A DNA stretch of 64,000 nucleotides, from positions 310,001-374,000 of the forward strand of contig NZ_FOYS01000002.1 in the NCBI RefSeq assembly GCF_900115785.1, read 5' to 3'. The stretch comes from Halogeometricum limi (GTDB lineage Archaea; Halobacteriota; Halobacteria; Halobacteriales; Haloferacaceae). Every line of letters starts with the position of its first letter. The first letter of the stretch is position 1. A program made the position numbers and the translations under genes. The notes below the pieces were generated by a model. It ran no database searches, was not told where the DNA came from, and saw nothing but the letters and a program-made list of their open reading frames with translations. Below, piece by piece: positions 4,900 through 27,156 of the stretch.

Positions 4900-6063
4900 T
4901 CAGACGTTGACGCCCTCTATCTCCTCGTTGACGACGAACCGGCCCTGCGGAGTGAGGTCGCAGGGGAGTTCCGATTCGGTGATGAGGTTGTCGTCGTACA
5001 GTTCGCCGAGGCGACTCGCGAGTTCGGCCTCGTCGAGGTCCAAGAGCGACGCGAGGTCGATTCCCGGACCGGTCGAGTAGAGACCGACGAGCACTTCGAG
5101 CGTCTCCTCTTCGACTTCCACGTCGCGGACGTCGCTCTTTATCCAGTGGTAGATGAGACGCAGGTAGCGGCCGAGGATGTTCATCTTCCGGCGCGACCCC
5201 ATCGACATCTCCGAGGTGACCGTCTGGCCGTTCTCGACGTGTTGTACCGAGAGGACGAGTCGCTTCTCGTCGTCGATGGTCCGTTCGATGACCTCGAAGA
5301 AGATGACGGAGGCAAGGTCTATCTCGAACGGTCCCTCCGTCTCTCCGAGTTCGTCGTTGCCGGGGAAGACGACGGACTCGTAGTCGAGGTGGAGTCCGGT
5401 CTTGCGCTTCGGCGTGTCCATCACGCGCCCGCCCACCTTCGCGGGGTGTTTCACGTGGGTCGTCGACCCGTTCAGGACCGCCCGGAAGAGGAGTAACGAG
5501 AACTTCTCGATGGTCTCTCTGTCGCCGCCGATGACCGTCGTGCGCCGGCGGTTGCCGACGACGTACCCGACCATCACCGTGTAGTCGAAGAACTCCTCGA
5601 CCTCTGCGGGGACCTGTCCCACGGCGATGTCGAAGATGGAGGTGATGGGGACCACCGTCTTCGTCTCGGAGGTGGCGAGGATGAGGCGGCGTTCGCTCAT
5701 CAGGACGCGCCCTTTCACCGGTTCGAACGTCGCCTCTCCGCCGGCGACGAAGTTCGCGACGAAGTCGACGATTATCGACTCGCCGTTCTTCGACCGTCTG
5801 AGTCGTCGTTCGCGTTCCGCGTCCGTCTCGGACGCGTCGTCCGCCGCGTCTTTCTTGTTCCGGTAGGCTTCGAGCAGGTCTTCTCCCGTCGCACCGGTCG
5901 ACGCGGGCGACGCCGCCGTCTCGCCGGTGTCGGTGTCTGCCCCGTCGCTCCCGCCGTCGGTTCGAAGCGACGCCGTGCGCGAATCCGCGAGGTAGTCGGT
6001 CTCGACGCCCTCGTCGGGTGTCGGTGTCGGTACGCCGGTGTCGGAGCCGAGTTCGTCCGTCAT
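4900..6063 (-). CDS. cheF2: Taxis protein CheF, second copy with acidic N-terminal extension
   Basis: 387 aa. ATG at 6063 overlaps the arlJ stop by 4 nt (ATGA), so it is the last gene of the arl operon. Residues 1-95 are Asp/Thr/Gly-rich and probably disordered; the CheF domain follows with GRVLMSERRLILATSE and IVDFVANF, and the C-terminus again resembles a winged helix. Much longer upstream extensions in frame lie wholly inside arlJ and are rejected. Being translated with ArlJ fits its role as the adaptor linking CheY-P to the motor. Confidence 0.92.
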   Translation of the reverse strand: MTDELGSDTGVPTPTPDEGVETDYLADSRTASLRTDGGSDGADTDTGETAASPASTGATGEDLLEAYRNKKDAADDASETDAERERRLRRSKNGESIIVDFVANFVAGGEATFEPVKGRVLMSERRLILATSETKTVVPITSIFDIAVGQVPAEVEEFFDYTVMVGYVVGNRRRTTVIGGDRETIEKFSLLLFRAVLNGSTTHVKHPAKVGGRVMDTPKRKTGLHLDYESVVFPGNDELGETEGPFEIDLASVIFFEVIERTIDDEKRLVLSVQHVENGQTVTSEMSMGSRRKMNILGRYLRLIYHWIKSDVRDVEVEEETLEVLVGLYSTGPGIDLASLLDLDEAELASRLGELYDDNLITESELPCDLTPQGRFVVNEEIEGVNV

Positions 6064-7811
6064 ACACTGATCAGTGCTCCTGCGAGCGAAGAGGTCGCGA
6101 CGGCACTCGCACAGCCGATCCACACGAGGACCACGAAGTGGAGGTAGGCGTTCGCCTTGTGCCCGCCGTCGACCATCCGGATCATCAGCGACGACAACAG
6201 CGCGTTGAACAGGATGATGAGCGCGAGCAGATACTCGATGAACGGGATGTCGTACACGCCGGCGTAGATGAGTTGTCCGAACTGCATCTGTCCGAGGTTC
6301 ATCTTCGTCGAGAACGACGCCAGAATCTCGACGACTTCGAGGCCGATGAAGAACGCGAACGACGCCGACGCCGTGATACCGTAGAGGACGCCGATGAGCG
6401 TCACCGTCGCCTGTTGGCGCTGCCGTCGGAGTTTGATGACCTCGTTCATGTTCCGGGAGATGAGTTCGCCGAGCTGTTTCGGCTTGCCACCCATCTGCCG
6501 TCCGACGTTGTACATCTCGCTGAACTTCTGGATGAGGTAGGAACTGGACTCGGCGGTGAAGAAGAACCACGACCGTCCGGGGCCGATGCGCATGTTGAGC
6601 CGGACGTACAGGCGGTCTATCTCCCGCGAGAGGACGCCGAAGTCCTTCGTTCGGAGCGTCTTCAGGACGGCCGTCGTCGTACTCTGCTTCGCCGTCTCGG
6701 AGGCACCGAGCGCGCGGATAAATCCGGGGTACTCCTCGTCGCGTTCCTTGATGCGGTTCTCGTGCCGTCGGGCGATGATGCCGGGGATGGCCAGCGGCGT
6801 GAGCGGTGCGGCGATGAGGATGGGGACGGGCGTGTCGAGCATCACCGCGCGGACGGACATCCCGACGTCAGTGAACCCGGCGGTTCCGAGCGCCAGCACC
6901 ATGACGAGGACGAACGAGAGCGCGACGGCGCCGTACAGCGCGATGTCTATCTGACGGTCGGCCTTCGTCCGGTACTCGTCTTGGACGTACCAGAGCGGGT
7001 CGTACGGCGACATCGTCTTGATGACGTAGTAGAAGCCGAGTTGGACGAAGACGAACAGCACGATGACCGCCGCGATAGTCATCGTCGCGTCCGTCCCCGT
7101 GAGGATGGGCAGGACGATGGCGTTGATGACCGCGAACGTCATCGAGAGAATCATCGAGAGGTAGAGGTCTTTCATCACTTCGAGGTTTCCGAGGGCGCTC
7201 TCGTAGACGGTGATGTACTTCTGGACCATCGCGTTCTGCTCGCCGAGGAGGAAGTCGTCTATCTGCTGGCCCGCCCCGAGCGAGTACGCGAGTCTGTCCA
7301 GGAAGTCCGCGAGCGGTTTCGAGGGCACCTGTCGGGCCCGACGCTCGCAGGCGTCGTCCAACGACTGGTTCCACGTATCGACCAGTTGGGTGATGCGGCG
7401 CATCTCGATGGCGAGTTCGCCGTACTCCTCTTCTCGCCCCAGTTGCCGAAACACCGACACGCGGTCGATGTTGGTCGTCGACAGCACCGTCATGTGGGTG
7501 ATGAGGAGGTGCAGTTGGTTCTCCAAGCCGCGGCGCTGTTCCTCGACGAGGAGTCGCGGATACAACAGCGCGCCCGCGAGGACGAGCGAACCGAGGAGGA
7601 ACACGGGGATGCGGACGAGTAACGGGAGCGGAAGCGCGAGGGCACCGACGAGTGCCACGAGGAAGAACACCGACGCCGGGAGCAACACGACGACTCCGTA
7701 GCGCTGCATCGGCATCGGCATGCGCTCGTACGACTCTAAGACCGAGTCGAGAAACGCGCGCACCTGTCTGGTCTGTGCGCCGAACCCCTCCGTGGTACTC
7801 GCCTCGGACAT
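6060..7811 (-). CDS. arlJ: Archaellum membrane platform protein ArlJ (FlaJ)
   Basis: 583 aa polytopic membrane protein, start ATG 7811 two bases after the arlI stop. It has several hydrophobic helices near residues 45-95, clustered helices at about 220-345, and a C-terminal set after about 460. Two cytoplasmic stretches carry GAGQQIDDFLL and the paired segment QMGGKPKQLGELI, as in GspF/FlaJ platform proteins. ArlJ anchors the ArlI ATPase and ArlH at the membrane and supports filament assembly and rotation. Confidence 0.96.
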   Translation of the reverse strand: MSEASTTEGFGAQTRQVRAFLDSVLESYERMPMPMQRYGVVVLLPASVFFLVALVGALALPLPLLVRIPVFLLGSLVLAGALLYPRLLVEEQRRGLENQLHLLITHMTVLSTTNIDRVSVFRQLGREEEYGELAIEMRRITQLVDTWNQSLDDACERRARQVPSKPLADFLDRLAYSLGAGQQIDDFLLGEQNAMVQKYITVYESALGNLEVMKDLYLSMILSMTFAVINAIVLPILTGTDATMTIAAVIVLFVFVQLGFYYVIKTMSPYDPLWYVQDEYRTKADRQIDIALYGAVALSFVLVMVLALGTAGFTDVGMSVRAVMLDTPVPILIAAPLTPLAIPGIIARRHENRIKERDEEYPGFIRALGASETAKQSTTTAVLKTLRTKDFGVLSREIDRLYVRLNMRIGPGRSWFFFTAESSSYLIQKFSEMYNVGRQMGGKPKQLGELISRNMNEVIKLRRQRQQATVTLIGVLYGITASASFAFFIGLEVVEILASFSTKMNLGQMQFGQLIYAGVYDIPFIEYLLALIILFNALLSSLMIRMVDGGHKANAYLHFVVLVWIGCASAVATSSLAGALISV

Positions 7812-7813
7812 CG

Positions 7814-9481
7814 CTACAGCCTCGCCATGTCGAACGGGAGGCCCTCGGCGCCGTCCCGCTGGAAGTCCTCGATGAGTTCGTTCACTTCGTGGTAGCCCGT
7901 GATGTTCTCCTGGATGGCGCGGTTGACGATCTCGGTGCGGTACTCGATGTCGTCGTATATCTTCCGCGTGTCGTCGTAGCCGAGGAGCGTCGCGATCTTC
8001 TCCTCCATGATGAACGAGTTGTTCCGGCCCTGGAACACGATTTCGTCCTCGACGGGGTCCCAGTAGAACGCCTCACGGGTGACGACGCCGCCCATCTCCT
8101 TCGAGTACCCCTCTATCTCTTGGACGCTCGTCACGCGGCGGAGGGTGTCGTTGCCGCGTTTGACCCGGTTCTGGAACAGGGCGATGTCGCAGTTCGACAT
8201 GAACGTCTCCGGGACGTGGATGGGGTCGCCGGTGAAACGCTGGATCATCGAGACGATGTCCGAGGCGTGGAACGTGAGCATCACCGGGTGACCGGTCTGG
8301 GCGGCCTGGAACGCCATCCGGCCCTCTTCACCACGGACCTCCCCGACGATGATGTAGTCTGGACGCGAACGGAGGGCGGCGGCGACGAGGTCGAACATGT
8401 CCACCTCGGAGTCGGCCCCGCGTCCCTCGCGCGTGAGGAGTTGCTGCCACGTGTCGTGCGGCGGAAGGACCTCCGCGGTGTCCTCTGCGGTGTATATCTT
8501 CGAGTCCTGCGGGATGAACGAGAGGATGGCGTTCAGCGTCGTCGTCTTCCCGGACGCCGTCTCGCCGACGACGAAGATGGTCCGCTCGTTCTCCAGCGCC
8601 ATCCAGAGGTACGCGCACAGCTCCGGCGAGAGCGTTCCCCACTTCGCGATTTGGAACACCGACAGGGGGACGTCGTCGCCCTGACGGATGGTGAGGCTGG
8701 ACCCCTTCAGCGACACGTCGTCGGAGTAGATGATGTTGATACGCGACCCGTCCGGGAGCGTCGAGTCGACGATGGGGTGCGCGTCGGAGACGGGGTCGCC
8801 GATTCGCTCACCCATGTTCCGAAGCCAGTTGTCGAACTGGTCTTTCGAGTCGAACTCGACGGTCGTCTCCAGCAGACCGTAGACCCCGTGGTCGACGTCG
8901 ACCTGCCGGGGACCGATGACGTGAATGTCCTCGTTCGCCGGGTCGCGCATGATGGGTTCGAGGGGGCCGAGGCCGACGATGTCGCGGACGAGACGGTACT
9001 GAATCTTCTCGTACGTCTCCTCTGTGACCTGCACGGGCCCGATGTCGAGTCGCTGGATGAGTTCGTGAACCCGCCCCTGCTGTTTTCCCTCCAGCATGAC
9101 GATCTCTTCGAGTAACTCTTCGATGCGGTCCTCGTACTCGACGTCGGCTTCGGGTGCCGGTTTCGACACCGAGCGTTCGAGGAGTTTGTCCTTCACCTGG
9201 TCGAATATCTCGTGTTCGTCGTCGTCGAGTTCCGGTTCGATGGTGTAGTACTTCGTCGTCTCACCGAAGTTGCCGTACACCTGCGCGTAGATGGGGCCGC
9301 CGAGGTGGTAGATGACGTTCGGCCGCCGGGATTCGTACTCCCCGGACGCCTCGTCGATGAGCATCGGGAACTCACCCGTTATCTGCCGGAAGCGTTTGAG
9401 GTGGTCGCGCAGGTGTCCCCAGCGCATCGCGTGCTGTTTCAGGTCGTCGGACAGTTTCGCAGAGCCGTGTTCGGTCGCCAT
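7814..9481 (-). CDS. arlI: Archaellum motor ATPase ArlI (FlaI)
   Basis: 555 aa secretion ATPase of the FlaI/GspE family. Walker A GETASGKTT lies near residue 305. The arginine-rich Walker B region is RSRPDYIIVGEVRGEEG, and the His box is GHPVMLTFHASDIVSM. The N-terminal half contains the FlaI-type domain with the segment MRDPANEDIHVIGPRQVD. It hexamerises on ArlJ and powers both archaellin export and rotation. Its ATG overlaps the arlH stop by one base (TAATG). The large pilus ATPase at 61230 is a distant paralogue. Confidence 0.97.
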   Translation of the reverse strand: MATEHGSAKLSDDLKQHAMRWGHLRDHLKRFRQITGEFPMLIDEASGEYESRRPNVIYHLGGPIYAQVYGNFGETTKYYTIEPELDDDEHEIFDQVKDKLLERSVSKPAPEADVEYEDRIEELLEEIVMLEGKQQGRVHELIQRLDIGPVQVTEETYEKIQYRLVRDIVGLGPLEPIMRDPANEDIHVIGPRQVDVDHGVYGLLETTVEFDSKDQFDNWLRNMGERIGDPVSDAHPIVDSTLPDGSRINIIYSDDVSLKGSSLTIRQGDDVPLSVFQIAKWGTLSPELCAYLWMALENERTIFVVGETASGKTTTLNAILSFIPQDSKIYTAEDTAEVLPPHDTWQQLLTREGRGADSEVDMFDLVAAALRSRPDYIIVGEVRGEEGRMAFQAAQTGHPVMLTFHASDIVSMIQRFTGDPIHVPETFMSNCDIALFQNRVKRGNDTLRRVTSVQEIEGYSKEMGGVVTREAFYWDPVEDEIVFQGRNNSFIMEEKIATLLGYDDTRKIYDDIEYRTEIVNRAIQENITGYHEVNELIEDFQRDGAEGLPFDMARL

Positions 9482-10230
9482 TATGCCACGCTCCGACTCT
9501 CGATGACGATGCCGATTCCCGACCGGACCGAGAACCCGATGCGGTCTCCGACCTGTTCGCCCATCCCCGCGAACCGCTTGACGAAGACGTTCCGCCGCAC
9601 GTCGTTACCGACTTCGACCATCTCCAACTGGAGGTAGACGTCGGCGATAGAGCGGAACGGCCCGATGGCGTCGTCGTCCACGGTGGAGGGGTCGACGGTG
9701 AGGATGATGGTCTTCCCCTTCGTCGTCAGTTCGCGGAAGAAGGAGATAATCTCCAAGGCGGCCTGTCGCTCCTCGTTCTGCCTGACGAGTGCCTCGAACT
9801 GCGGGTCGTTCCGCAGGATGGCGTCGAACGTGTCGATGATGGTCACGTCCGCCTCCCAGAGCGTCTCGGCCTCCATGAGTCGCCGGAGGAGTTGCTTTCG
9901 CTCTTTCGACGCGCCGCCGGTGAGCGTCCCCGAGGCGTCTATCTCCGCCGGGATGAACAGCACTTCTTCGTCGAGAAGCGGTTTCACCATGTCGTACGAC
10001 AGCGAGTGCATCTGGTCGAGAAAGCCCCGCACGCCCAACTCCGTCGAGATGAGCGACGTCACGATATCTTCTCGACTGAACCCGTAGGTGAACCGCTGGG
10101 AGAGGACGCTCTTTCCGGCGCCGTAGTCCCCTTCGATGAGGACGATAGACCCCTTCGGAATCCCGCCCCCGAGTTCCTTCTGTAACCGGTCGTGCTGTTG
10201 TAGCCCGAGTGAGAAGTGATTCGATTTCAT
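9481..10230 (-). CDS. arlH: Archaellum motor ATP-binding protein ArlH (FlaH)
   Basis: 249 aa RecA/KaiC-fold protein. I choose ATG 10230 (MKSNHFSLGL), 2 nt after the arlG stop; the in-frame extension upstream is Arg-rich and lies within arlG. Walker A EGDYGAGKSVLSQ is near residue 33, and the Walker B strand is ADVTIIDTFDA. ArlH binds ATP, docks on ArlI and is thought to be a regulatory moderator rather than an efficient ATPase. Note the second RecA-fold protein of the cluster at 12826. Confidence 0.96.
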   Translation of the reverse strand: MKSNHFSLGLQQHDRLQKELGGGIPKGSIVLIEGDYGAGKSVLSQRFTYGFSREDIVTSLISTELGVRGFLDQMHSLSYDMVKPLLDEEVLFIPAEIDASGTLTGGASKERKQLLRRLMEAETLWEADVTIIDTFDAILRNDPQFEALVRQNEERQAALEIISFFRELTTKGKTIILTVDPSTVDDDAIGPFRSIADVYLQLEMVEVGNDVRRNVFVKRFAGMGEQVGDRIGFSVRSGIGIVIESRSVA

Positions 10231-10232
10231 GA

Positions 10233-10682
10233 TTACGTTCTGAACTGGAATATCTCCTCGTCGCCGTCGACGATGAGTTTCGCGCGGTGGTCGCCGGAGT
10301 CGAGCGAGAGACCGCTCACGACCACCTTGACGACCCCGTGTGGTTGCCACCCCGTCTCCCCGTCCACGACGGTGACGGTGACGTCGGTCTGGTACTGCGC
10401 GTCGACGATGACGTCGAACGACTGCCCCGTCGCGGGGATCGATCTCGTTCCGGTGTTCTTCACGTACAACGTAAGGTTTCCGGAGGTGCTGTTGTAGACG
10501 GCCGACTCCGAGTCGCTGATAACCTCCATGTCGGTCCGGATGTTCTTCGAGACGTCCGCGCCTCGGTCGTCTAGCGCGCTACTGATGTCGGTGACCGTGT
10601 TGATGAGCACGCCCGAGACGCCCGCCGCGATGACGAGACTCGCGATGAACAGGATGAGCGTCGGTGCGGAGACGTCCGCCAT
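10233..10682 (-). CDS. arlG: Archaellum stator protein ArlG (FlaG)
   Basis: 149 aa. A single N-terminal hydrophobic helix (LILFIASLVIAAGVSGVLI, about residues 8-27) is followed by a beta-rich domain with LTLYVKNTGTRSIPATG. ArlG and ArlF form the pseudoperiplasmic stator that contacts the S-layer. Start ATG 10682 lies one base after the arlF stop. Confidence 0.94.
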   Translation of the reverse strand: MADVSAPTLILFIASLVIAAGVSGVLINTVTDISSALDDRGADVSKNIRTDMEVISDSESAVYNSTSGNLTLYVKNTGTRSIPATGQSFDVIVDAQYQTDVTVTVVDGETGWQPHGVVKVVVSGLSLDSGDHRAKLIVDGDEEIFQFRT

Positions 10683-10683
10683 C

Positions 10684-11136
10684 TCAGTTCACCACCGTCT
10701 CGTTCGCGTCGGCGACGCCGTACTCGGTGACGAACTTGACTCGCTGGGGCGCGTCGTCCCCGGAGAACTCCACGAGGAGCGTCTCTCCGGGGGCCCAGAT
10801 GTCCGTCCCGGCGGTGCCGTCGACCTCCAGTACGGTCGAGTTACTGAGCGCTCTGTACTCGTTGTCGACGAGTAGCGAGGTGTCGTTGACGGACAACGTC
10901 GTCGTCCCGGTGTTCTCGACTTCGATAGAGGTCGGATAGCTGCCGTTGTTGTTCGTGTAACTGGCCGAGGTGATGTTTATCGCCGTGTTTCGCTGGTCGA
11001 GGAGTCGTTCGTCGGTGGCGTCCCGTGCGTCGGAGAGTTGCTCTGCGCTCCCCGCCGCGGCGGTGTACAGCGTCCCCGTGCAGACGAGGACACCGAGGAA
11101 GATTATCGCCGTCGAGCCGCTAACGCCGAATCCCAC
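10684..11136 (-). CDS. arlF: Archaellum stator protein ArlF (FlaF)
   Basis: 150 aa. The N-terminal hydrophobic segment GSTAIIFLGVLVCTGTLYTA anchors an immunoglobulin-like beta domain (SYPTSIEVENTGTTTLSVN). It binds the S-layer and works with ArlG as stator. Its start lies 17 nt inside the end of arlCE, which implies translational coupling. Confidence 0.94.
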   Translation of the reverse strand: MGFGVSGSTAIIFLGVLVCTGTLYTAAAGSAEQLSDARDATDERLLDQRNTAINITSASYTNNNGSYPTSIEVENTGTTTLSVNDTSLLVDNEYRALSNSTVLEVDGTAGTDIWAPGETLLVEFSGDDAPQRVKFVTEYGVADANETVVN

Positions 11137-12517
11137 GGTGACCCCCCCGATGCGACAGTTCTTCGAGCAGACGCGCTTCGGCGACGTCGCCAGCCAGCCT
11201 GCTCACGTACGTGAGGCTCTCTTTGTGGTGTTCGACGCGGAGGTCACGCGGTTCCTCCGCTGTCGTCGACGACGCCGCGTTTCGGACGTGCGCGTTCATC
11301 TGTCTCTCGACGGTGCGGGATATCCACTCCTGTTCGCGGTACTGCCGGAGGGCGCGCGCCGCGCCGATGGCGCCGCCGACCGAGACCAGAAAGCGCGTCC
11401 ACTCCAGCGCGACCGATTCGGCGACGTAACTCGCCGGGAGGGCGCTGAGGTAGACGTCGGCGTCCGCCGTCGCGTCGGCGGTCTGTCCGGACGTCTGCTC
11501 GGCCTGCGCTCCCGAGTCGGAGCCTGTGGTCTCCGCGGTGTCCGACGTCTCGAACTCGAACGACCCGGTGTCCGGTTCGGCTGCTTCGGACGCGTCGGGT
11601 TCGTCGGTCGCACCGAGGAACTCCGATTCGGCTTCGTCGGCCGCCTCGGCCTCGTCCGCGTCCGCGTCGTCCGCGTCGTCGCCGACGAGTTCCTCGGTGG
11701 TGGGGACGTCGTCGTCTTCGACCGCCAGGTCGTCGGCGTCGAGGGGGCTGTCGTCGACGTCCGCGTCGTCGTCTTCCCAGCCGTCTCCCTCCTCGTACTC
11801 GGCTTTCAGGTCGTCGAAGCTCGACCCGCTGGTGCTCGGTTCGTCCTCCCCGTCGTCTTCGACCATCGGGTCCTCCTCGCCGAGAATCTCCGAGGGGTCG
11901 TCCCGTTCGTTCTCGGAGAGTTCGTCGCCGGCGGCCAACTCGGCCTCTTCGGCCTCCGCCTCGGAGTCGAAGTCGCCGAAGTCTTCGTCGAAGAAACTCT
12001 CGGCGTCGGCGCTCACGACGTCGGGGTCGAGGTGTTCTTCTTCCTCCTCTTCGGCCTCGAACAGGCCGAACGACCCGCCGCCTTCGAGTCCGCCCATCTC
12101 GCGGGCGTCGTCGACGAACGGGTTGATTCCGCGCGTCACCATCTCGTAGATGTCGAGCAGTTTGCGGATGGTGTCGTCGAGTTCTTCGACGGTCTCGCCG
12201 ATCTGTTTGTTCTCCTCGCGGACGGTGTTCATCCCGGACGACGTGGCGCTGACCTCGTTCTCCAGTTCGGAGACGCGGTCTTCCAGTTCGGCGACGGTGT
12301 CGGGGTCGACGCCGCCGCCGCCACCGCCACCGCCGAAGTCGCCGTCTTCGTCGTCGAAGCCGTCCATGTCGTCCGCCTCGTCTCCGAAGTCACCGAAGTC
12401 GTCGGAAAAGTCGTCGAGGTCCTCGTCGAACCCGAGGCCGTCCGTCGCGAGACCCGTCGCGTCACCATCGGGTAGCGCGTCCTCGTCTTCCCCGTCTATC
12501 CAGTCCATCATTCCCAT
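11120..12517 (-). CDS. arlCE: Archaellum accessory protein ArlCE (fused FlaC/FlaE)
   Basis: 465 aa first gene of the arl operon. Residues 1-65 are strongly acidic with a Gly-rich run. The FlaC-type coiled coil spans about 70-140 (VAELEDRVSELENEV, then KLLDIYEMVTRGINPFVDD). A highly acidic linker follows, and the C-terminal FlaD/E domain (about 345-430) has YLSALPASYVAESVALEW. In haloarchaea, C and E are fused and pass switching signals from CheF to the motor. MGMMDW gives two possible ATGs (12517, 12511). Confidence 0.94.
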   Translation of the reverse strand: MGMMDWIDGEDEDALPDGDATGLATDGLGFDEDLDDFSDDFGDFGDEADDMDGFDDEDGDFGGGGGGGGVDPDTVAELEDRVSELENEVSATSSGMNTVREENKQIGETVEELDDTIRKLLDIYEMVTRGINPFVDDAREMGGLEGGGSFGLFEAEEEEEEHLDPDVVSADAESFFDEDFGDFDSEAEAEEAELAAGDELSENERDDPSEILGEEDPMVEDDGEDEPSTSGSSFDDLKAEYEEGDGWEDDDADVDDSPLDADDLAVEDDDVPTTEELVGDDADDADADEAEAADEAESEFLGATDEPDASEAAEPDTGSFEFETSDTAETTGSDSGAQAEQTSGQTADATADADVYLSALPASYVAESVALEWTRFLVSVGGAIGAARALRQYREQEWISRTVERQMNAHVRNAASSTTAEEPRDLRVEHHKESLTYVSRLAGDVAEARLLEELSHRGGHRGIRR

Positions 12518-12676: not shown

Positions 12677-12710
12677 CAAGAATGTTGCCACCAAATTATC
12701 AGCGGTGATA
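12677..12710 (-). promoter_or_regulatory. Candidate arl operon promoter with TATC-N6-GATA palindrome
   Basis: The palindrome TATC-AGCGGT-GATA occupies 12697-12710. On the reverse strand, 14 nt further downstream lies TTCTTG (12682-12677), a poor TATA box at the spacing seen in the other motility promoters. The arlCE start is 160 nt further on. The site could also serve kaiC (12826), but no TATA box lies at the matching forward spacing. The 308-bp spacer 12518-12825 holds no gene I can support. Confidence 0.55.
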
Positions 12711-15304: not shown

Positions 15305-15643
15305 TCAGTCGCGAGCGATCTGCCGCCAGACGTCGTCGAGTTTGTTCTTCACTTCGGGTCGTTCGGTGACTTGGACGTTGCACTCCTGACCGTCGAAGCG
15401 GATGACTATCTCGTCTACCTCGCGCCGGTAGACGTTGGTTCGGCGGTGTTCGTCCGAGAGAACTCTGTCGTGGAGGTCGAGAAGGCCGGCGGCGGTCAGT
15501 TCCTCGATACGACGGTAGCACGTCGCAATGGGAATATCGAGCATCTCGCTGAACTCTTGAGCGGAGTGAGGTTCGTCCGCAGCGCGTAAGATATCGGGAT
15601 TGTATTCGTTGCCCAGCGCTGCAAGGGTCCTGTCAGACTCCAT
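15305..15643 (-). CDS. Small winged-helix (ArsR-like) transcription regulator
   Basis: 112 aa. A winged helix-turn-helix occupies about residues 10-75 (SAQEFSEMLDIPIATCYRRI as recognition region, then the wing at RRTNVYRR). A short C-terminal beta segment is EIVIRFDGQECNVQV. It is alone and leaderless: TTAACT on the reverse strand is centred about 27 nt before the ATG. It lies directly upstream of the archaellin promoter and inside the motility island, so control of arl/che genes is a reasonable inference but unproven. No metal-binding cysteines are seen beyond two scattered ones. Confidence 0.85.
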   Translation of the reverse strand: MESDRTLAALGNEYNPDILRAADEPHSAQEFSEMLDIPIATCYRRIEELTAAGLLDLHDRVLSDEHRRTNVYRREVDEIVIRFDGQECNVQVTERPEVKNKLDDVWRQIARD

Positions 15644-16410: not shown

Positions 16411-16444
16411 TATCAGCGTTGATAATGGGGTGGAAGGGTTTATA
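16411..16444 (+). promoter_or_regulatory. cheY-cheC promoter with TATC-N6-GATA palindrome
   Basis: TATC-AGCGTT-GATA (16411-16424) is followed after 14 nt by TTTATA (16439-16444). The cheY ATG at 16469 is 27 nt from the TATA centre, so the message should be leaderless and the palindrome centre lies near -50. Confidence 0.75.
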
Positions 16445-21090: not shown

Positions 21091-21125
21091 TTATCTCGGG
21101 TGATAATCTCGGGGGTACGTTTATC
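21091..21125 (+). promoter_or_regulatory. arlD promoter with TATC-N6-GATA palindrome
   Basis: TATC-TCGGGT-GATA (21092-21105, embedded in a 16-base TTATC...GATAA inverted repeat at 21091-21106) is followed after 14 nt by TTTATC (21120-21125). Initiation near 21150 would leave a leader of about 70 nt before arlD. Confidence 0.7.
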
Positions 21126-21222: not shown

Positions 21223-22212
21223 ATGAAGATAGACCCTGACAACTACGACCTACGTGAACTCCGGCGTATCGCCGACGAACGACGAACCGACCGAGACAGC
21301 GCCGACGACGACCGTCGCCGCGGGGGCGAGGGGGGTCGCCCGACCCGCACCGACGCGCCGCGCGAGGGTCGCAGACGTCGGAGTCGCTCGGACGGTCCGG
21401 ACCGAGGACGCGACGGCCGCGACCGCCGGGACGACCGAGGCTACGACCGCCGCGAGAACCGTGACGGGGGCGGACGCGGGGGACAGACCCGGGCCGACCA
21501 CGACGACTACGACGGCTACGAGGAACGTGACCGAAGCGGGCGCTCCCGACGGGACGACGGCCTTCGACGACCGCGAGAGGGATACAGCGACCACGCGCGC
21601 GCGTACGACGAAGTCGCCCGCGCGGACCACATCGTGAGCCGGTTCGGCTTCGGCGGTGGGGACGGTGACGGCCGCCGAAACGGTCGCGACGGGCCGCGAG
21701 GCGGGTACGACGAACTCGGCTACGAACGCTCCTACGACGGCCGGCGGTTCGACTTCGAGGAGGTCGGCGAGTTCCGCTTCGACAACCCGGTGCACGACCG
21801 TCCGCGTGGGCGCGCCGGCGAGGCGCTCAGACACAACCAACTCGAACAGCTACTCATGCACGAGACGGCCGCCGCGGGCGGGTCCTTAGAGAAGCCCTAC
21901 CTCTCCAGCGTTCCGAAGGAGTACGCCGCCGAACGCGTCGTCTTCGACTGGTTGGAGTTCCTCGTCCTCAAGGGCGGGTTCAAGCGGACGATGGACGCAC
22001 TCCGCTACTACCTCTCGGTCGACTGGATCACCGAAGACGTCGAGACGGAACTGCACGACTACCTCATCGGCTTCTCGGGGAACGTCTCGAACACGACGGA
22101 GTTCGACGTGGACGACCACCACCTCAGCTTGGTCCACGTCGCCAGACTGGCCTCGATGGCCGGGCGGAGCGACGAGGAGTCCCCCCGTCAGGGTCGGTCT
22201 CCCTCGCTCTGA
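21223..22212 (+). CDS. arlD: Archaellum accessory protein ArlD (FlaD)
   Basis: 329 aa. It begins MKIDPDNYDLRELRRIADER, a conserved haloarchaeal ArlD start. A long Arg/Asp/Gly-rich, probably disordered stretch follows (about 20-130), and the C-terminal FlaD/E domain (about 220-320) has YLSSVPKEYAAERVVFDWLE and DWITEDVETELHDYL. It pairs with ArlCE in the cytoplasmic switching complex. The mixed-charge linker contrasts with the purely acidic one in ArlCE. It lies apart from the arl operon and has its own promoter. Confidence 0.92.
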   Translation: MKIDPDNYDLRELRRIADERRTDRDSADDDRRRGGEGGRPTRTDAPREGRRRRSRSDGPDRGRDGRDRRDDRGYDRRENRDGGGRGGQTRADHDDYDGYEERDRSGRSRRDDGLRRPREGYSDHARAYDEVARADHIVSRFGFGGGDGDGRRNGRDGPRGGYDELGYERSYDGRRFDFEEVGEFRFDNPVHDRPRGRAGEALRHNQLEQLLMHETAAAGGSLEKPYLSSVPKEYAAERVVFDWLEFLVLKGGFKRTMDALRYYLSVDWITEDVETELHDYLIGFSGNVSNTTEFDVDDHHLSLVHVARLASMAGRSDEESPRQGRSPSL

Positions 22213-22274
22213 CCGCGGGTCGCGTCTGTCGATTGACCGACAACGTTTTTCATTCGGTGCGCTACGGTGGGGGT

Positions 22275-23345
22275 ATGGCGGAGGATGGAACAGACGGAGA
22301 CGCCTCGTTCGACGACGAATCGACGACCGGACCCACGCCCGTCGGCGTGAAACTGGGGAGTACGCGAACGATTCTCCAGTTTTACGACGGCGACGGCGAC
22401 CTGCAGACGGTTCGGACGCTCACCTGCCTCGCGACGTACGAAGACGCGCTGACCGGCGACGAACGCGTCCTCTACGGCGAACAGGCCGCCCAGGAGTACC
22501 CCGACAGAGTCGAGTACATGCTCCGCTCTGGACTCCCCGAGGACGACGACGGTGCGGAGTCGGCGAAGAAGTTCTTCTCCGAGTTGGTGACCGCGAACGG
22601 CCTCGACGGCGACAGCGCCGTCGTCTACGCGATTCCCACCATCGACAACGAACCCGGCCTGCGAAACCTCAACCGCGTCATCGAAGAGAGCCCCGTCGGC
22701 GACGCCCTCGTCCGCAGTTTCCCCGAGTCGCTCTGCGGGGCGATTCCGGCGTTCGGCGACGACTTAGAGGCCATCGACAGCGTGTTCGCCGCGGTCAACA
22801 TGGGGTCGACCAACCTCGAAGCCTCCGCGTACCGCCACGGCGAACAGCTCTCCCCGTTCGTCTCGGGTGCCGTCACGGGCAACGAGGTGGACCGCCGCAT
22901 CGCGAACGCCGTCGAAGAGGAGACGCAGGGCAGAGTGAACATCGACCTGACGACGGCGCGCGAGTACAAAGAGGAACACGCCGACTTCGACGACTTCGAG
23001 GCGTTCACCGACGTGATACAGCAACCGGGCGGTGGCTCTCACGAGTTCACCATCGAACGCTCCGTGATGGAACCCCTCGACGACTACCTCGACGACGCCG
23101 TCGACGAGGTGGCGAACAACTTCCTCGCGCAGTTGGCGAACGACCACATGAAACCGTACCAACTCGCCCTCTCGAAGCCCATCGTCCTCACCGGCGGGAT
23201 GGCCTGCATCCCCGGCATCGTCGAGGAGTTCGAGACGCGACTCTCCGAGGAACTCAACCGCGACGTGGAGTGCATCTCGGCGGACCGGCCGGACCTCGCA
23301 CCCGCGGAGGGTGCCCGCCGCATCGCCGAACGACTCGTCAAGTGA
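22275..23345 (+). CDS. Actin-superfamily (MreB-like; salactin/volactin-type) ATPase
   Basis: 356 aa from ATG 22275; a TATA-like GTTTTTCA lies about 27 nt upstream, so the longer start at 22233 is less likely. An acidic leader of about 20 residues precedes GVKLGSTRTILQF, the phosphate-1 loop. AAVNMGSTNLEASAY is the phosphate-2 loop and PIVLTGGMACIPGIVEEF the adenosine motif. Haloarchaeal actin homologues (salactin, volactin) form dynamic filaments affecting shape and division; this protein fits that group by size and motifs. Polymerisation cannot be inferred from sequence. Position beside arlD is notable because disc cells and swimming rods interconvert in this lineage. Confidence 0.85.
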   Translation: MAEDGTDGDASFDDESTTGPTPVGVKLGSTRTILQFYDGDGDLQTVRTLTCLATYEDALTGDERVLYGEQAAQEYPDRVEYMLRSGLPEDDDGAESAKKFFSELVTANGLDGDSAVVYAIPTIDNEPGLRNLNRVIEESPVGDALVRSFPESLCGAIPAFGDDLEAIDSVFAAVNMGSTNLEASAYRHGEQLSPFVSGAVTGNEVDRRIANAVEEETQGRVNIDLTTAREYKEEHADFDDFEAFTDVIQQPGGGSHEFTIERSVMEPLDDYLDDAVDEVANNFLAQLANDHMKPYQLALSKPIVLTGGMACIPGIVEEFETRLSEELNRDVECISADRPDLAPAEGARRIAERLVK

Positions 23346-24917: not shown

Positions 24918-27020
24918 TCAGTCGTCCGAACGCGCGAGTTCCTCGTCGCCGTCGCGCGCCGAATCCGCCGGGGCGGACGCGCACTCGAACCGCATCACGA
25001 CGGCCGTTCCTCTCCCGTCTCGTTCCTCGAACGATATCGACCCGTTCGACACCGAGAGAATCCACTTCACCAGCCACAGGCCGAGTCCGCTGGCGTGTTG
25101 CAGTTGCGTCTCGGTGCCGGACTCCAACGCGGCGAGTTCGGAGGGGGGGATGCCCGGTCCGTTGTCGACGACGCGGACCTCGACTTCGTCGTCCGCCGGC
25201 CGCGTCGTGACGGAGACGCCGACCCGCGGGAGCACCCGGTCGTTGTGTTCGAGGGCGTTGTCCACGACGTTCGTCACCGCCGTTCCGACCTGGTTCGTCG
25301 CCAGCACCCACGCCTCTTCGGGGAGGTACGTGTCGAGGACGATGGACGGGTTTTCGTCTCGGACGGCCGCCAACCGGTCGCGGAGCAGGTCGGTAATCTC
25401 CACGGGGACTCGTTCTCGCTCGTCGCTGTGCAGCGTCTTGTCTATCTGTCGGGCGCGTTCGCCGAGCGAGACGAGCGACCGCGCTTTCCGCCGTATCGTC
25501 TCGACGTGGGCCATCTCGTCGGGGTCGTCGAGTCTGTCCGCCAGCAACTCCGTGTGTCCGAGGATGACGTTCATGTCGTTCCGGAGGTCGTGTCTGAGGA
25601 TGCGGTTGAGGACCCGGAGTCGCTGTTCGTAGCGTCGACGCTCGGTCACGTCGCGGGAGTTGACGACGACGCCACCGACGGCGGGGTCGTCGAGGAGGTT
25701 CACCGCGACGGCGTCGAGGGTCCGCCACGTCCCGTCGGCGTGCTTCGTTCGGAACTCCGCGCGGACGGCGTCGCTCGTCGCGATTCCCTCCTCGAACGTC
25801 GATGCGACCGCTTCGTAGTCGTCGGGGTGGATGCGGTCGAGTGCGCCGTTGCCTTCGAGTCGTTCCCGAGGGACGCCGAGCACCTGTTCGGACGACGGAC
25901 TCGCGTACGTCCGCGTCCCCTCGGCGTCGAGGACGGTGATGAGGTCGCGCGAGTTCTCGATGAGTGCGCGGAACTTCGCCTCGGTCCGTCGCCGTTCGGT
26001 GGTGTCGCGAAGGACGACCGTCCACCCGCGGTCGTGGCCCTCGGTCCCGCCGATGGGCGTCGCCGTCGCCTCGTAGTACCGTCGTTCGTCGTCGTCTTCG
26101 ATTTTGAGGTCGAGTCGGTCTCTGTCGCCGTCTAAGAGCGCGTACATCCCGAGCGAGTTGTGGCACACGTCGGCGACGTGCGACCCGACGGCCGACGACC
26201 GCGGGACGGTAAAGAGCGGCCGGGCCGCGGGGTTCAACTCGACGACGCGCGCCCGGTCGTCGAGGACGACGATACCGTCGCGAATCTCCGTGAGGACCAG
26301 GTCGCGTGCGACGGGCGTCACGTCGAACAGTTCGTCGCTCTGGAGGCCGAACAGGACGACGAGCGCCGACAGACCTAGTGCGGGCGGGACCGACTGGAGT
26401 TCCGTCGGCGACCGACCGAGGAGGTCCACCGCGAACCCGAGCAACGGGAGCGCCGCGGCGGCGAGGAGAACGAGGGTTCCCCGCCGGTAGGTGCCGTCGC
26501 CGCGGACGAGGAGTCGTCCCATGACGACGGCACCCACCAGTGCCAGCGTGGTGACGTAGAGCAGGTGGACGTCGTACAACGGACCCTGCGCCGCGACGAC
26601 GTAGCTCCACGAACCGACGGTCACGTGGTCGAATCCGGCGACGAACAGGTCGTTCGTCCCCGCGACGCCGGTGACGACGAGGAGCACCACGAGGACGGGT
26701 TCGACGCACAGTGCGGCGATGTTCCGCCGCGTGAGCGTCGTCCTGTCACCGGCGTACGCGAGGGCGAAGACGAACCACGCGGTCGGCGCGAACGCCGCGC
26801 CGACCCACGTGAGTTGGTACCACAGAAGCGACCCCGTCCGCGTCGGAGCCATCAGTTTGAACCCGTACGCCGTCGCCCAGACGGCGCACACCAACGAGAG
26901 AACGGCGAACGGAACGCGAACGCGACGCGAGTAGAAGTTGTATCGAAGGAGCACGACGACGGTGACGGACGCGCAGAGCGCTCCCGCTACGAGCGAGAGG
27001 CCGATAGTCGTCCGTATCAT
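24918..27020 (-). CDS. 7TM-PAS-PAS sensor histidine kinase
   Basis: 700 aa. Seven hydrophobic helices in residues 1-230 form a histidine-kinase N-terminal 7TM module. Two PAS domains follow (about 240-350 and 355-470), then the H box ILRHDLRNDMN with its phospho-acceptor His near 483, N box NVVDNALEHND, G1 VVDNGPGIP and G2 GLGLWLV. No receiver domain or response regulator lies next to it, as is common for haloarchaeal kinases. Upstream is a palindrome-TATA arrangement like the motility promoters, suggesting co-regulation with taxis genes. Confidence 0.93.
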   Translation of the reverse strand: MIRTTIGLSLVAGALCASVTVVVLLRYNFYSRRVRVPFAVLSLVCAVWATAYGFKLMAPTRTGSLLWYQLTWVGAAFAPTAWFVFALAYAGDRTTLTRRNIAALCVEPVLVVLLVVTGVAGTNDLFVAGFDHVTVGSWSYVVAAQGPLYDVHLLYVTTLALVGAVVMGRLLVRGDGTYRRGTLVLLAAAALPLLGFAVDLLGRSPTELQSVPPALGLSALVVLFGLQSDELFDVTPVARDLVLTEIRDGIVVLDDRARVVELNPAARPLFTVPRSSAVGSHVADVCHNSLGMYALLDGDRDRLDLKIEDDDERRYYEATATPIGGTEGHDRGWTVVLRDTTERRRTEAKFRALIENSRDLITVLDAEGTRTYASPSSEQVLGVPRERLEGNGALDRIHPDDYEAVASTFEEGIATSDAVRAEFRTKHADGTWRTLDAVAVNLLDDPAVGGVVVNSRDVTERRRYEQRLRVLNRILRHDLRNDMNVILGHTELLADRLDDPDEMAHVETIRRKARSLVSLGERARQIDKTLHSDERERVPVEITDLLRDRLAAVRDENPSIVLDTYLPEEAWVLATNQVGTAVTNVVDNALEHNDRVLPRVGVSVTTRPADDEVEVRVVDNGPGIPPSELAALESGTETQLQHASGLGLWLVKWILSVSNGSISFEERDGRGTAVVMRFECASAPADSARDGDEELARSDD

Positions 27021-27122: not shown

Positions 27123-27156
27123 CTTAAGCAGTTCCCTCGCGGTATCGAGTGTGATA
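27123..27156 (-). promoter_or_regulatory. Candidate histidine-kinase promoter with TATC-N6-GATA palindrome
   Basis: TATC-GAGTGT-GATA occupies 27143-27156. On the reverse strand CTTAAG (27128-27123) follows after 14 nt, the same distance as in the motility promoters. Initiation near 27098 would give a leader of about 78 nt. No TATA box is placed to serve the forward gene at 27301. The rest of the 280-bp spacer shows no gene. Confidence 0.6.

Follow-up and report, generated by a model that had tools for sequence, protein, structure and literature searches.

Salactin and its neighbours in the window

The window analysed here, a 64,000-nucleotide stretch of Halogeometricum limi DNA whose own numbering is used throughout, carries at positions 22275-23345 on the forward strand a complete reading frame (ATG start, TGA stop) that codes for an actin-like ATPase of 356 aa. 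A sequence-only reading of this DNA had placed an actin-superfamily gene 62 nt after arlD, in the same direction and at the edge of the motility island, and had brought up salactin and volactin in connection with it. Coordinates and profile scores bear out the position, and of the two names the first stood: the protein scored 605.8 bits with Pfam PF25229 (cut-off 27.1) and 594.9 bits with NCBIfam NF053533 (cut-off 400) and is, by these curated family cut-offs, salactin, while a volactin identity was rejected at 20.3 bits with PF25216 (cut-off 35). Profile searches of the whole genome returned a single salactin match and no volactin over its cut-off. The AlphaFold2 model of salactin (pLDDT 86.6, pTM 0.84) adopts an actin fold, with residues 1-16 below pLDDT 50 in an N-terminal acidic tail that is short in this protein. 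Foldseek returned MreB-type chains as the best matches of the model and MamK at ranks 19, 23 and 26; membership in the MamK family was rejected at 33.5 bits with NF040964 (cut-off 400). Glycine-rich stretches around GVKLGSTRT, NMGST and TGGM, which may be nucleotide-binding motifs of the actin/HSP70 fold, are kept across our salactin alignment (A2). Sequence searches for relatives of solved structure gave none, at E 0.1 for ArlD and at E 1e-6 for the salactin profile.

The gene upstream of salactin, at 21223-22212 (+), was identified as arlD by its Arch_fla_DE domain (PF04659, 88.1 bits), a tree of DE domains, an alignment and a structural model. Alignment and model give ArlD a conserved N-terminal helix, a long low-confidence linker rich in Arg, Gly and Asp, and a C-terminal helical DE domain. 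The linker covers about residues 25-195 of the window protein, and the ArlD open frame measures 297-445 aa in the window genus, g6 and g8 and mostly 150-240 aa in other genera. No usable fold match was found for the ArlD model. In the DE-domain tree, which has 88 rows and few columns, the window ArlD falls into a group supported at 99/96, apart from the window ArlCE; no true ArlCE row belongs to this group, CE_L038 within it being an ArlD frame mislabelled by length. The salactin-linked DE genes fall mainly into two groups, one from the window's family and one from Haloarculaceae, separate from most ArlCE rows, with L054, L068 and L098 on long branches close to ArlCE rows. A salactin-specific ArlD paralogue is not supported as a general account, given the few columns of the tree and these three salactin-linked rows near ArlCE.

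The motility island beside salactin contains cheA, cheF, arlJ-I-H-G-F-CE, archaellins, a KaiC-like gene, a gene for a CheC/CheX-like protein, cheD and a chemoreceptor gene. Profile searches placed arlJ, I, H, G and F at 6060-11136 (-), and the other DE-domain protein of the genome, ArlCE, is encoded at 11120-12517 (-), with its DE-domain match at 11189-11461. Beside the archaellin genes, a winged-helix protein of 112 aa encoded at 15305-15643 (-) matched PF12840 (HTH_20), and tblastn recovered a homologue in 13 of the 15 fetched archaellum clusters. This protein is a candidate CsmR and probably the orthologue of that regulator.

The arlD-salactin pair and its promoter-like elements

Because our two sets of salactin loci overlap, one fetched and one named, we counted distinct salactin sequences. 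A DE gene lies directly upstream, on the same strand, of 116 of the 144 distinct haloarchaeal salactins, a count that includes the best 80 of 139 named matches and whose distance rule for adjacency omits L080 and L206; rows L085 and L132, which are 100-base fillers, were dropped. Taken by set, the arrangement is found for 64 of the 80 salactins in 78 fetched loci plus the window, the fetched loci being drawn from 77 of 146 salactin-positive genomes and hand-picked to cover genera, and for 68 of the 81 salactins in the named loci (best 80 of 139 matches). ArlD and salactin genes are a conserved two-gene unit in haloarchaea, and their adjacency is an old trait, present in three families and beyond chance. 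The sequence-only reading had singled out synteny as a check on its idea, and the orthologues prove to lie generally behind arlD, not elsewhere. The pair is also mostly distant from other archaellum genes: any arl or che query matched within flanks of up to 8 kb at 9 of the 80 named loci (best 80 of 139 matches), two of which match arlCE only and possibly through the DE gene itself, and arlF to arlJ lie near salactin at one of these 80 loci, L211. Halobacterium has no such pair, which would suit a neighbourhood that arose by chance beside the motility island; this account is refuted by the 116 of 144 distinct salactins, which come from three families and are for the most part remote from the island.

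The exceptions comprise six loci of Halobacteriaceae (f9), part of the f2 genera g46, g53 and g61, several Halovenus loci and some short contigs, while two Halosimplex loci have ArlD 5 kb upstream of salactin. Adjacency is missing from Halobacteriaceae and from part of Haloarculaceae. In its accessible part, PMC10746226 reports poor salactin synteny even within Halobacterium; this published check, made on Halobacterium and its near relatives, concerns a lineage in which the arlD-salactin pair is broken. Our searches, in mainly open-access literature, found no paper linking salactin to arlD. In Haloferax (g28), salactin follows a DE gene in all 15 genomes and H. volcanii is positive for PF25229; we infer that HVO_1202 is the H. 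volcanii salactin. Eight Haloferax loci (L077-L082, L138 and L139) carry an additional divergent DE gene some 3-5 kb downstream of the pair, and in H. mucosum (L076, L140) such a gene lies behind a second salactin locus.

The two genes overlap by 4 or 8 nt, or are separated by 2 nt, in 14 of the 64 adjacent pairs of the fetched loci and window. Overlap of the salactin start codon with the arlD end is seen in g14, most named Halorubrum, g16 and f8; in Halobaculum, g17 and four named Halorubrum, 2 nt separate the genes. Since the genes overlap or sit 2 nt apart, co-transcription of arlD and salactin is likely in Halorubrum and Halobaculum.

In Haloferax volcanii, according to the accessible part of PMC13286277, the CsmR motif is TATCA-N4-TGATA with TATA boxes adjacent, motility and shape genes are under CsmR control, and ArlD/HVO_1202 is among the transcriptional units upregulated in a csmR mutant. 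A CsmR-type box with one mismatch to this motif, TATCTCGGGTGATA, precedes arlD in the window at 21092-21105 (+), and the TATA-like TTTATC of the arlD promoter lies 14 nt after it at 21120-21125 (+). Motif scanning found exact boxes between arlCE and the KaiC-like gene (12697-12710) and upstream of the CheC/CheX-like frame (16411-16424), and a box with one mismatch at 27143-27156, upstream of a gene for a 7TM-PAS histidine kinase (24918-27020, -) that may belong to the same regulon. With up to one mismatch allowed, the motif occurs 4 times in the window against 0.05 expected, and the window CsmR would be predicted to bind there.

Across haloarchaea, a CsmR-type box with up to one mismatch occurs within 260 nt before arlD at 45 of 129 arlD-salactin loci against 0.25 expected, in a count that contains some genomes twice. 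Boxes precede arlD in Haloferax (7/7), Halobaculum (8/8), Halorubrum (16/18), the window genus (2/2), g17 (3/3), g8 (2/2), g27 (2/3) and Halobellus (5/9). None was found within one mismatch at the other 84 of the 129 loci, including all those of Haloplanus (0/13), Haloarculaceae (0/43), Halohasta and relatives (0/12) and g10 (0/2) and seven single loci (0/7). At the printed box-bearing loci, a TATA-like element follows the box at similar spacing wherever the print extends that far. The fetched archaellum clusters contain boxes as well, those of Haloplanus and Haloarcula included, and all three g14 (Halorubrum-like) clusters share the variant TCTCA..TGATA between cheD and arlCE. Because a box-bearing arlD abuts salactin far from the cluster, salactin in Halorubrum and Halobaculum probably answers to the motility regulator; the pair of Haloplanus and Haloarculaceae seems to have left CsmR control.

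A T-rich TATA-like element also lies at 22246-22254 (+), about 29 nt before the salactin ATG, and its spacing to the ATG is fixed in orthologues of the window lineage, in which the distance from arlD to salactin varies between 61 and 200 nt. Where arlD and salactin are 45 nt or more apart, such an element precedes salactin at 27 of 37 loci (at none of the six from Haloferax), and where they are closer, at 3 of 27; at a control position, often inside arlD and thus not purely intergenic, it was found at 0 of 37. Since the element keeps its place while the arlD gap varies, window salactin likely has its own promoter besides possible read-through from arlD. A terminator-like stem at 22227-22242 was rejected as being at chance level (2 found, 1.1 expected), and scans for bacterial sigma-70 promoters and against Rfam gave nothing useful. 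The suggestion that filament cytoskeleton and motor are linked in expression thus gains from the general adjacency and from the box before arlD, which would favour co-expression of the two genes, and loses from the likely separate promoter of salactin in the window.

The same elements would fit an explanation by regulatory coupling only, in which CsmR times salactin to the motile rod phase and the protein acts on shape or envelope and not on the motor. CsmR controls motility and shape genes alike, its putative boxes stand before arlD, and the accessible part of PMC10746226 describes poor viability, uneven DNA and misshapen cells upon salactin deletion in H. salinarum under low phosphate. According to that source, mutant cells growing exponentially in rich medium were unchanged in shape, and in stationary phase they were larger, which qualifies the effect on shape mentioned in the sequence-only reading. 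As adjacency is moreover kept in Haloarculaceae and Haloplanus despite the absent box, we regard regulation alone as an unlikely account of the pair.

Salactin, the archaellum and genomes outside the haloarchaea

We compared the occurrence of salactin and the archaellum in all 148 genomes of the window's family, with arlJ as the archaellum marker (123 with, 25 without). Salactin was over its cut-off in 100 of the 123 arlJ-bearing genomes and in 3 of the 25 arlJ-less ones (Fisher, P = 5.5e-11), and as one of these three is fragmented, salactin is intact in 2 of 25. In a within-genus permutation that left out G044, 0 of 20,000 rearrangements were as extreme, and the difference persisted among genomes at least 90% complete (94/116 with arlJ compared to 2/17 without, P = 3.6e-8). 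Volactin, taken as a control, occurred in 55 of 123 genomes with arlJ and 11 of 25 without (P = 1; within-genus permutation, P = 0.98). In the window's family, salactin is thus usually absent where the archaellum has been lost. In a sample of 194 genomes of the order, partly the same as the family set, salactin was found in 69 of 139 genomes with arlJ and in 0 of 55 without, a count weighted by whole families that have no salactin; 43 of the 69 positives lie outside the window's family. Conversely, 23 of the 123 arlJ-bearing family genomes have no salactin, and none of the f5 or f11 genomes of the order sample gave a match although many carry arlJ. Salactin is therefore not required for the archaellum.

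In the compared members of g5, g14, g16 and g23, over 100 kb separate the pair from arlJ, and in those of g4 the two are on different contigs; no intact salactin was found in the arlJ-less members of these five genera. Given this distance, the loss of salactin is not simply one island deletion. Two cases stand apart: G044:C8:772366-777208 holds a broken arlJ and a broken salactin within about 5 kb, in apparent joint decay, and G095 and G100 of the Haloplanus group, the sole arlJ-less genomes with an intact salactin, have no full arlJ and keep ArlD and salactin together.

Joint loss could also reflect operon hitchhiking, salactin having been put behind arlD once and then deleted together with a useless arlD, with no role in motility of its own. 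One ancestral pairing would account for most of the adjacency, and four genomes (G003, G060, G086 and G143) have neither salactin nor any DE match. However, the pair persists though the flanking genes called at five pair loci mostly differ, with one shared upstream gene; loss of salactin would still need the gene to be dispensable without motility; and three DE genes and two salactins alternate at each of L071 (G278, f2) and L211 (Halobacteriaceae archaeon SHR40), next to genes of the archaellum. Hitchhiking therefore appears improbable to us. ArlD, for its part, can persist without arlJ or salactin, since five f11 genomes (G225, G256, G271, G280 and G283) contain a single DE gene and no match to either, the gene being of ArlD type in the two of the five that entered the DE tree. 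The ArlD of f11 also retains the N-terminal motif, and no salactin match was obtained in f11. The idea that this orphan ArlD has another actin next to it was rejected: the neighbour at L113 is a histidine kinase gene about 850 nt away.

Salactin extends beyond the haloarchaea, being found in 64 of 392 genomes sampled across the phylum, 19 of them outside the order. No DE gene was seen in the 19 fetched non-haloarchaeal salactin regions, several of which end at contig ends, and 6 of the 19 genomes lack any DE-domain match. In 11 of 18 of these regions (L218-L226, L228 and L229), salactin is followed by genes for a coiled-coil protein and an ATPase of MinD/ParA type, and partners of this kind are known from partitioning systems; a T2SSF protein gene comes next in three of the 11, and T2SSE/T2SSF genes lie upstream in one. 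Four f19 regions encode a protein with carboxypeptidase-regulatory domains upstream of salactin, and three (L213, L214 and L216) have genes for a type IV prepilin peptidase and an AAA ATPase downstream. These neighbourhoods hint at a wider tie of salactin to positioning ATPases and type IV filament machines, and they leave room for an older salactin role unrelated to the archaellum.

They bear as well on the published explanation, that salactin segregates chromosomes at low ploidy, in which case its arlD neighbour would be a convenient source of a promoter for actively dividing rods. The H. salinarum deletion phenotype (PMC10746226, accessible part) and the coiled-coil and MinD/ParA-type genes behind salactin in those 11 of 18 loci speak for such a function. 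A general segregation protein should nonetheless outlast the archaellum, whereas salactin is intact in so few arlJ-less genomes and volactin is unchanged, and the published argument from gene context was drawn from Halobacterium and near relatives, without the arlD link. We consider segregation as the main function less probable than a service to the motor, yet the strongest of the competing explanations.

A proposed role at the cell pole and comparison with known systems

In most of the haloarchaea examined that carry it, salactin stands behind arlD, and in the window's family loss of the motor usually goes with absence of salactin, which points to a service of this actin to the motor at the cell pole. 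We propose that salactin is the partner gene of arlD and that its product works for the polar archaellum apparatus to which ArlD belongs, probably to anchor or to distribute that apparatus, and put the chance of this at about one in two. The accessible part of PMC10746226 describes salactin filaments in H. salinarum as polar and dynamically unstable, growing out of the poles; ArlD-GFP marks polar motor foci in Haloferax volcanii (PMC11588486, accessible part); and the accessible text of the review PMC8978795 states that no connection between motor and polar cap has been resolved. In the window organism, salactin filaments would likewise grow from the cell pole, where ArlD, as a component of the cytoplasmic motor complex with its polar foci, would contact the pole-side filament end and tether it to the motor or the polar cap. 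The ArlD linker, long and of low confidence in the model and presumably flexible, would be a plausible tether. By growing and shrinking, the filament could hold, centre or distribute motor platforms in such a way that each daughter receives them, and perhaps hand on other pole-bound cargo as well, such as chromosomes.

Several observations count against this proposal. The accessible part of PMC10746226 reports no motility difference for the H. salinarum deletion, though in a lineage without the pair. The persistence of ArlD in f11, where its N-terminal motif is kept without a salactin match, also weighs against a dedicated partnership, as does the occurrence of salactin without ArlD outside the haloarchaea. 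The missing adjacency in Halobacteriaceae and part of Haloarculaceae, the loci without a box and the motile genomes without salactin point the same way.

More tentatively, and with less than even odds by some distance, salactin might form a cytoskeletal arm of the haloarchaeal archaellum: an actin filament with dynamic instability, held by ArlD, would position and distribute rotary motors at the poles, and the reported DNA phenotype would follow from a disturbance of the poles. In a wider sense, related archaea may use salactin for type IV filament machines; there its neighbours are ATPases of MinD type and, in certain genomes, also T2SSF proteins or a prepilin peptidase. Few archaeal actins have known dynamics, and salactin is one of them, but what is known of its function comes from a single species whose gene context is not informative. 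Taken together, the conserved pair with arlD, the box of CsmR type and the association with the archaellum yield a sharp prediction for genetic models such as Haloferax, namely that an actin filament places the motor or hands it down. If this is true, salactin might be the partner that the motor platform meets at the pole.

Among known systems, the closest is salactin of Halobacterium salinarum (VNG0153C), which belongs to the same family by the cut-offs and shares the actin fold and the low-confidence acidic N-terminus. The genes differ in their setting: the window salactin lies behind arlD with its CsmR-type box, whereas that of Halobacterium lies elsewhere, near replication and repair genes (PMC10746226, accessible part). 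Volactin of Haloferax volcanii (HVO_2015; PF25216) is likewise a haloarchaeal actin that forms dynamic filaments, as described in the accessible part of PMC10869688, but the window gene falls below the volactin cut-off and the presence of volactin shows no trend with the archaellum. As to the ArlCDE switch ring, the window neighbour is ArlD by domain and tree, and an actin is not among the ring's parts in the main text of the review PMC8978795, whose accessible portion contains neither "actin" nor "cytoskelet". MamK, the magnetosome-positioning actin, is the nearest actin subfamily according to the accessible part of PMC10746226 and is among the PDB fold matches of the window protein. Window salactin is not a member of that subfamily and the cargo differs, but organelle positioning by MamK provides the model for the role that we propose for salactin.
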